Source of the DNA: Acidimicrobiales bacterium
GTDB taxonomy: Bacteria; Actinomycetota; Acidimicrobiia; Acidimicrobiales; VFJN01
Direction of reading: 5' to 3'
Length of the DNA stretch: 34,120 bases
Assembly: GCA_035316325.1 (NCBI GenBank)
Contig: DATHJB010000232.1
Location: 1 to 34,120 of the forward strand
Both the position numbers and the translations under genes were made by a program. Shown here piece by piece: positions 1-2,913 of this stretch (position 1 is its first letter; every line of letters starts with the position of its first letter). The notes under the pieces are model-generated. The model saw only the letters and a list, made by a program, of their open reading frames with translations, ran no database searches and was not told the DNA's origin.

Positions 1-149
1 CCACATCGAGCACCCCTCATCCCCCAGCACCCTGTGCTCCACCAGCACCCTGGTCAGGGCGCTGCGACCCCCGCGAACCCACCCCAGAATTGCTGCCGGC
101 CGGAGACCACATCCACCAGGAGGCCGGGTTCCTCGACTGCCCTCCCCAA

Positions 150-165
150 CGTTCCACGTGGAACA
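150..165. promoter_or_regulatory. parS site 1 (ParB binding site)
   Basis: A perfect 14-bp palindrome, GTTCCACGTGGAAC, occupies 151-164. It matches the known ParB/Spo0J recognition pattern (consensus close to TGTTTCACGTGAAACA). The outer bases are C and A, so the 16-mer is not fully symmetric. Its position close to the origin fits the normal placement of parS. Confidence 0.85.
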
Positions 166-509
166 CCACAAGGCCCTGACCACCGGCGCTCTGGTCGGGG
201 CATGGCGACCCCGCCACCGACCCTGGGCTGCTACCAGTTCGAGCCCGTCGTCCACCAGCTGTTGCCGCGACTGCCCTCCCGGACGTTCGACGTAGAAGCC
301 AGGAGTTCCTGGCCTTAAGGCAATGCCCCTTAGTCCGGCATCGGCGGCCGACGACCAGCCCGACGGCGGGGGGTCCCCGCAGCGCAGCACCGGAGAACGA
401 GACAAGGCGGACCTGTCCGACGCACGTGCTTGGAACATCCCAGATCCGTGGTCAGAGGGCCCGGCCCTCCGAGCTGGTGCCCGAATTGGACGTCGCCGCG
501 GCTTCATCG

Positions 510-525
510 TGTTCCACGTGGAACA
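510..525. promoter_or_regulatory. parS site 2 (perfect 16-bp palindrome)
   Basis: TGTTCCACGTGGAACA is symmetric over all 16 bases, making this the best of the three ParB sites. It is followed, after 9 bases, by a 17-bp element that also accompanies site 3. Confidence 0.9.
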
Positions 526-550
526 TGCGAATGTCCTGGTCAGCAGGCTG
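511..550 (+). repeat. extended parS module, copy A
   Basis: The parS core (511-524) is followed by a 9-base spacer and then TCCTGGTCAGCAGGCTG (534-550). The module recurs in inverted orientation at 1428-1467 with the same spacer length. The 17-bp element is identical at 16 of 17 bases between copies, and the whole 40-bp module at about 35 of 40. Conservation well beyond the 16-bp ParB footprint suggests either a duplication or a second binding determinant next to parS. Confidence 0.75.
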
Positions 551-1044
551 CCCACCTTCGATCGAGGCCCTGATCTGGACATTCGCCAAGGCTCCGGGAT
601 GGGAGCTGCCCGGCCCCCAGCCGGAACCAGGCAGCTCCACAAGCCGCCACCCAGCCAGGACTCTGCTGGGTCTGAGCTCGCCCGCAAGTAGGCGCCAGCC
701 CGGGCCACCGACCGGCCTCGTCTCCAGACCCCGAGCCCCTTGAAGTCGGGTACCTCCGAACCAAGCCAGGGCAGTCGCTACACATGACCCCACCGACGGG
801 TCAGGCCACGGCGACTCGTCCGGTCGCCCCCGACCACGCCAACCCCTTTCGCCAGAAGCGAGGTGGGTTGATCCACGGTGATGACTCAGGCCTGGCCGGC
901 GTGCCCGCGAACACAGCAGGTCCCCTACTCCTCCAAGCTGAACAAGCCTACGGGCCACAACGACCCGGTCGCACCTCCGGCAGGCCCGATCAGCGCGCCT
1001 GGCCGCGGCGACCTCACTGGAGCCCACTGAACTGATTCGAACCG

Positions 1045-1059
1045 CTGGCCAGTGGCCAG
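1045..1059. repeat. perfect 7-1-7 palindrome
   Basis: CTGGCCA-G-TGGCCAG is a perfect inverted repeat with a single central base, the geometry of a dimeric regulator site. It lies in the non-coding parS region with no adjacent gene start. Function unknown. Confidence 0.45.
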
Positions 1060-1337
1060 GAGGGGGGACCTGACCAGCTCGAGTCAACCACTACCCCAGC
1101 CACGCCGAGCAGTCCTGCAGGACCACGACCCGGCGCTCCTCGGACAGGCAGCCCTTCCGTAACCGACCCAGGGTCTCCGAGCCCACCCCGGCCTCCGATT
1201 CCCGCACCCCGCCGCTCTATCAGGCGACGACTGCCTTCCGGCCAACCGGCCAGACGGCTGACCGCCATCCCCCGCGCGCAGCCTCCCAGTCGGACCCAGC
1301 TATCAGCGGCCTTCGACCTCTATACGACGACAGCAGA

Positions 1338-1365
1338 AGAGCCGGCCCGAAAGAGCACCGGCTCT
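1338..1365. repeat. 8-bp inverted repeat (hairpin)
   Basis: AGAGCCGG (1338-1345) and CCGGCTCT (1358-1365) pair perfectly across a 12-base loop. No T-run follows on either strand, so a Rho-independent terminator is unlikely. It lies about 90 bp from parS site 3. Confidence 0.4.
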
Positions 1366-1427
1366 GACCTGGACGGGGCTGACAGAACTCTCTCACCGGG
1401 CCGTTCCAACACCCTGTTGAGCACGTC

Positions 1428-1467
1428 CAGCCCGCTGACCAGGAGTTTCACACGTTCCACGTGGAAC
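1428..1467 (-). repeat. extended parS module, copy B (inverted)
   Basis: Read on the minus strand: GTTCCACGTGGAAC (1467-1454), a 9-base spacer, then TCCTGGTCAGCGGGCTG (1444-1428). It is the inverted counterpart of 511-550, differing by one base in the 17-bp element. Confidence 0.75.
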
Positions 1468-2292: not shown

Positions 2293-2913
2293 TTAGAAGA
2301 GGGGGCGCTTCGTGGGGATGCCGACGCGGCGGGGGTAGCGAGCGGGGCAGAGGGACACCTGGAGGAGCGACTGGTAGTGGAAGTCGGTGGACCAGCGCTC
2401 GGTGGGGGACAGGCCCAAGGGGGCCAAGCCGTCCTCGGGCCAGCGGGCCGTGTCGTCCGGGGGTTCGCTGACGAGGACGTGGCCGCCGACTCGGAGCAGG
2501 GGAGCAGCGCACTCGGCCGTGACGGCTGGGGCCCCGAAGCCACGGGCGACCACGACGTCGAACGACGAGCGGAGCTCCGGGCGGCGGCCGGCTTCCTCGG
2601 CCCGCACGGCAACCACGGTGCAGCGGTCGATCAGGCCCAGCGACTCGACGGCATCGACCAGGAAGCCCGCTCGGGTGGCGCTCCCCTCGATGAGCACGGC
2701 CCGAGCCTCGGGCCACGCCACAGCCAGCACCAGGCCCGGCAACCCGCCGCCGCTGCCCAGGTCGGCGAACGATGACGGCGCCGGGACCGGGCCCTCGGCG
2801 AAGCCCGAGGCGTGGGCGATCGCCCGTGGCAGCGGCCCGGCACCGATCCAGCCCCGGCGCTGGGCGTCGAGCAGCACGGTCTCGAGGGTCGTCGTCTCCG
2901 GCATCGCCCGCAT
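2293..2913 (-). CDS. rsmG: 16S rRNA (guanine-N7) methyltransferase RsmG
   Basis: RsmG (GidB) uses S-adenosylmethionine to methylate N7 of the 16S rRNA guanine equivalent to E. coli G527; losing it is known to give low-level streptomycin resistance. The 206-residue product has the SAM-binding glycine loop ADLGSGGGLPG near residues 49-59, a SFDVVVARG motif near 117 and the family's basic C-terminal tail, here RYPRRVGIPTKRPLF. Length is normal. The start is ATG at 2913; an in-frame ATG at 2904 is an alternative. It lies downstream of jag on the same strand, but a strong terminator separates them, so it needs its own promoter or read-through. Downstream is non-coding parS DNA instead of the usual parA. 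Confidence 0.93.
   Translation of the reverse strand: MRAMPETTTLETVLLDAQRRGWIGAGPLPRAIAHASGFAEGPVPAPSSFADLGSGGGLPGLVLAVAWPEARAVLIEGSATRAGFLVDAVESLGLIDRCTVVAVRAEEAGRRPELRSSFDVVVARGFGAPAVTAECAAPLLRVGGHVLVSEPPDDTARWPEDGLAPLGLSPTERWSTDFHYQSLLQVSLCPARYPRRVGIPTKRPLF

Follow-up and report, generated by a model that had tools for sequence, protein, structure and literature searches.

The rsmG-parA intergenic region and its parS sites

The window analysed here (34,120 nucleotides) is the entire contig C232, one of 244 contigs in an assembly of 6.37 Mb. Its minus strand carries yidC, jag and rsmG in that order, followed by 2.3 kb without a recognised gene. The gene upstream of this gap, rsmG (gidB; positions 2293 to 2913, minus strand), was identified by its match to PF02527 (7.6e-20), whereas a Pfam search of the ORFs tested in the gap matched no family, and every hit of an Rfam search of the gap fell under its family's gathering score. 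The parB gene is found on a second contig, C107, with parA adjoining it at the extreme end. The terminal bases of C107, CCACATCGAGCACCCCTCA and then a few differing ones, correspond to the opening bases of the window (positions 1 to 19), a putative join of about 20 overlapping bases. Since the end of C107 that bears parA overlaps the start of the window, the parS cluster described below lies between rsmG and parA, in an intergenic region that takes up positions 1 to 2292, and parA and parB carry on in C107.

This region contains three perfect parS cores, GTTCCACGTGGAAC, at positions 151 to 164 (site 1), 511 to 524 (site 2) and 1454 to 1467 (site 3). This core is a perfect palindrome and fits the parS consensus at all three sites. 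No further parS was found in the 6.37-Mb assembly when up to one mismatch was allowed. Positions of both rsmG and parA could be established for 27 relatives, and in 26 of these the gap between them also carries parS (69 sites in total), over gap sizes that range from less than 0.2 to 4.8 kb; the sole exception is a locus (L065) titled as a gammaproteobacterium. Contig L051, titled Bifidobacterium breve, has an rsmG-parS-parA region closest to this order (RsmG 49%, ParA 72%) and is probably a mislabelled or mis-binned MAG. The palindrome, the nearby parA and parB genes and the position conserved among relatives are all those of a chromosomal ParABS parS cluster. We read the locus as the centromere of a chromosomal ParABS system in an actinobacterium, of the order Acidimicrobiales to go by the names of its relatives. 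ParB is predicted to bind there, and the arrangement of its parS sites is a standard one for such clusters.

Repeated segments and relics around the parS sites

Comparison of the repeats showed that sites 2 and 3 belong to an inverted repeat of 41 nucleotides with 88% identity (positions 510 to 550 on the plus strand and 1428 to 1468 on the minus strand). Each copy consists of parS, a 9-nucleotide spacer that is identical at 5 of 9 positions, and a 17-bp element, TCCTGGTCAGC followed by A or G and then GGCTG, identical at 16 of 17 positions; it reads TCCTGGTCAGCAGGCTG in copy 2 (534 to 550, plus strand) and TCCTGGTCAGCGGGCTG in copy 3 (1444 to 1428, minus strand). The palindrome, spacer and element that the earlier note had described as common to the two sites in opposite orientations are therefore confirmed. 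Beyond the 14-bp core the two sites agree on one side only, at 21 of 26 bases; the remaining pairings of their flanks give 7, 10 and 10 of 26, and pairs of parS flanks taken from different genomes match at 7.3 of 26 bases on average. In the alignment the similarity begins at the palindrome and stops at the final base of the 17-bp element.

Two further duplications, neither of which is mentioned in the earlier note, are present in the gap. The first is a third, partial copy of spacer and element, inverted and without parS (GCGAATGTCCAGATCAG, positions 570 to 586, minus strand), which matches positions 527 to 543 at 15 of 17 bases and forms with them an imperfect hairpin of 61 nucleotides; no inverted copy this good within 100 bp was obtained in 2,000 shuffles. 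It has the spacer of copy 2 and so was derived from copy 2, or copy 2 from it. The second is a direct tandem duplication with 69% identity (E 7e-7) between unit A (39 to 163, plus strand), which ends in the intact parS site 1, and unit B (180 to 297, plus strand), at whose end lies a decayed parS (GTTCGACGTAGAAG, 285 to 298, plus strand; three mismatches). A possible third unit of this duplication, within the parA leader of C107, reached marginal significance (P 0.036) and was set aside. Site 1 was also considered as a diverged third copy of the module, but its flank matches that of site 2 at 12 of 26 bases (P 0.04 uncorrected), which is not significant after correction.

The gap also holds immigrant sequence, consisting of a dispersed repeat and a tRNA relic. 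The repeat (332 to 427), of roughly 100 bp and without an Rfam match, has about ten more copies in the same genome (on C229, where it is intergenic, C214, C91 twice, C171, C218, C212, C43, C203 and C62). The relic is a decayed tRNA-Pro(GGG) at about 1937 to 2007 on the plus strand, with a local alignment score of 63, where the background reached 35 at most; C43 carries the live tRNA-Pro(GGG) gene. The terminator-like hairpin that directly follows tRNA-Pro in two relatives, G001 and G164, is also present (CAGGTCAGAGCCGG...CCGGCTCTTCTG, 1328 to 1374, minus strand), with no recognisable tRNA ahead of it here. A tRNA origin of the site 3 element was rejected, as the minus strand from 1375 to 1452 scores 27 to 31 against tRNA-Pro and other parts of the window reach 34 to 35, even though this tRNA-type terminator hairpin lies just past the element.

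parS flanks and parS turnover in relatives

The 397 genomes of the order that we searched for the module (parS-N9-TCCTGGTCAGC, three mismatches allowed) were its own and 396 others, all from other genera. The true combination of spacer and element was found in its own genome only. Four of the others (G140, G306, G322 and G342) gave one near match each, at three mismatches, and a reversed control also yielded stray matches. The earlier note had named as a refutation related genomes that keep the parS core but lack the spacer and the element; those compared, all from other genera, do keep parS at this place without either.

In relatives, the flanks of parS are conserved at their first few bases only. 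Over 198 flanks of 99 parS sites, information content falls from 0.61 bits at position +1 to about 0.2 at +2 and +3 and does not exceed 0.16 from +4 onwards; the conserved A at +1 corresponds to the 16-bp form of parS. The near-palindrome CTGGTCAG, which lies within the module, occurs once within 60 bp of these 99 sites when 0.94 occurrences are expected, i.e. at chance level, and the 17-bp element was not found at its spacing from parS in the 396 genomes from other genera.

What does recur in relatives is duplication of parS together with its surroundings. In G053 a segment of 67 bp bearing parS is perfectly duplicated, the copies being 249 bp apart. G002 and G006 align at 91–94% around the locus, yet their parS sets differ: a duplication of parS and flank spans 56 bp in G002 and 48 bp in G006 (80–83% identity), one flank copy in G006 (L070:2660) has no parS, one parS of G002 is missing from the corresponding place in G006, and one parS of G006 carries a mismatch. 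The duplicated flanks are different sequences in each lineage, which fits duplication with selection on the palindrome alone and not a shared second binding site. These close species, with gain and loss of parS inside duplicated segments of the rsmG-parA gap (L070:2560-3200 in G006 and L069:7950-8420 in G002), are a good system for studying parS turnover.

Origin of the module and comparison with known centromeres

The earlier note had left two explanations for the module, a second protein bound beside ParB or the remnants of a duplication. We favour segmental duplication followed by decay within the parS cluster, with a probability of about 0.8, because the gap also contains a copy without parS, a decayed parS and the tandem duplication at site 1, and because relatives have undergone independent duplications. 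The homology runs across both parS and flank, and partial or decayed copies accompany it. The second protein loses ground, since relatives from other genera retain parS but not spacer and element. Nor does the genome show any enrichment of the 17-mer: with up to three mismatches it gave 129+121 matches, compared with 121+140 for its reversed control, so that there is no excess of copies elsewhere in the genome as a dispersed repeat would show.

According to the duplication reading, the rsmG-parA gap changes fast, both by decay and by the duplication of short segments in direct or inverted orientation, and ParB would select for the 14–16-bp palindrome only, so that parS stays intact while the neighbouring sequence copied with it drifts. 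Sites 2 and 3 would be an original and its inverted copy, hence the same 26 nucleotides on one side of each. This segment may have been copied as a unit; inverted template switching or a short gene conversion starting in the parS palindrome, followed by drift, may also be proposed because the homology is one-sided and anchored at the palindrome. Direct tandem copies could result from replication slippage or unequal exchange. The 17-bp element would then be a hitch-hiker, presumably without function; ParB would load at every intact palindrome and spread, and the element need not take part. That ParB has no need of a longer module, as the earlier note had remarked, agrees with the binding of Caulobacter ParB to parS on 24-bp duplexes with a low-nanomolar Kd (PMC5815017). 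The flanks would thereby record shifts in parS number and position, the selected palindromes being carried along in short duplications whose remaining sequence decays, and the rsmG-parA gap of this order would be a good place to measure gain and loss of parS between close species.

The best-placed alternative, though an unlikely one, is that a second sequence-specific protein or an additional ParB contact binds CTGGTCAG, whose centre is 22 bp (two helical turns) from that of parS. The spacer has the identical length of 9 nucleotides at sites 2 and 3, and conservation between the two copies is higher in the element than in the spacer (16/17 and 5/9; Fisher P 0.034, with the boundary chosen after the fact). 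The 8-mer CTGGTCAG occurs four times in the gap (positions 50, 536, 1070 and 1435) and nowhere in the other 32 kb of the window. The 7-mer TGGTCAG is present six times in the gap when about 0.4 are expected (nominal P 6e-6), an over-representation that after correction is no more than suggestive, because the best null 7-mer over 30 shuffles reached 1e-6. At site 1 its reverse complement, CTGACCA, has the same offset from parS, and the flanks of sites 1 and 2 share the 12 of 26 bases given above (P 0.04 before correction). Nevertheless, three of the six TGGTCAG copies (at 51, 449 and 1070) lack a parS at the fixed spacing, the module is missing from the 396 other genomes, all from other genera, CTGGTCAG is at chance near the parS sites of relatives, and genomic matches to the 17-mer do not outnumber those to its reversed control. 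This reading, which would make the locus a composite chromosomal centromere peculiar to its lineage, with an unknown protein or an extra ParB contact reading CTGGTCAG two helical turns away from parS, is held improbable, and an accessory site beside parS specific to the lineage or genus is unsupported.

Less probable still is that spacer and element form, with the inverted copy at 570 to 586, a structured element that acts at site 2 as a cruciform or an RNA hairpin. Positions 527 to 587 do fold as an imperfect hairpin (z of −3.6 for DNA, with 1 of 200 shuffles as good), but site 3 has no corresponding hairpin (z of −0.5 and −1.8), there is no T run behind the one at site 2, and no Rfam match falls at its position. 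Finally, chance resemblance between unrelated parS flanks can be dismissed as extremely improbable: matches of 16/17 anywhere within 2.3 kb do arise in about a quarter of shuffles, but a match anchored at parS with identical spacing (at least 21 of 26 bases; binomial P of about 4e-8) refutes it, and an extra copy of spacer and element lies about 20 bp away.

Composite plasmid centromeres include parS of P1, with its ParB boxes and IHF site, and sopC of F, with its 43-bp repeats. As in these, the binding palindrome of the window is embedded in a longer repeated unit; unlike in these, the unit is absent in relatives and present only twice, in inverted orientation, with no second binder indicated. 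Comparable too are the duplications of G053 and of G002 and G006, where the segment copied within the rsmG-parA gap likewise comprises parS and tens of bases of its flank, although their flank sequences are unrelated to those of the window and their copies are direct whereas those of the window are inverted. In chromosomal ParABS clusters, for instance those of mycobacteria and Caulobacter, parS sites lie near parAB and oriC. The mycobacterial gidB, parA and parB genes adjoin or overlap one another, with two parS close by (PMC2346475). The window shares with such clusters several perfect 14-bp parS palindromes beside rsmG/gidB, parA and parB, and differs from them in that a long non-coding stretch between rsmG and parA holds all three of its parS sites, two of which belong to copies of a single longer segment.
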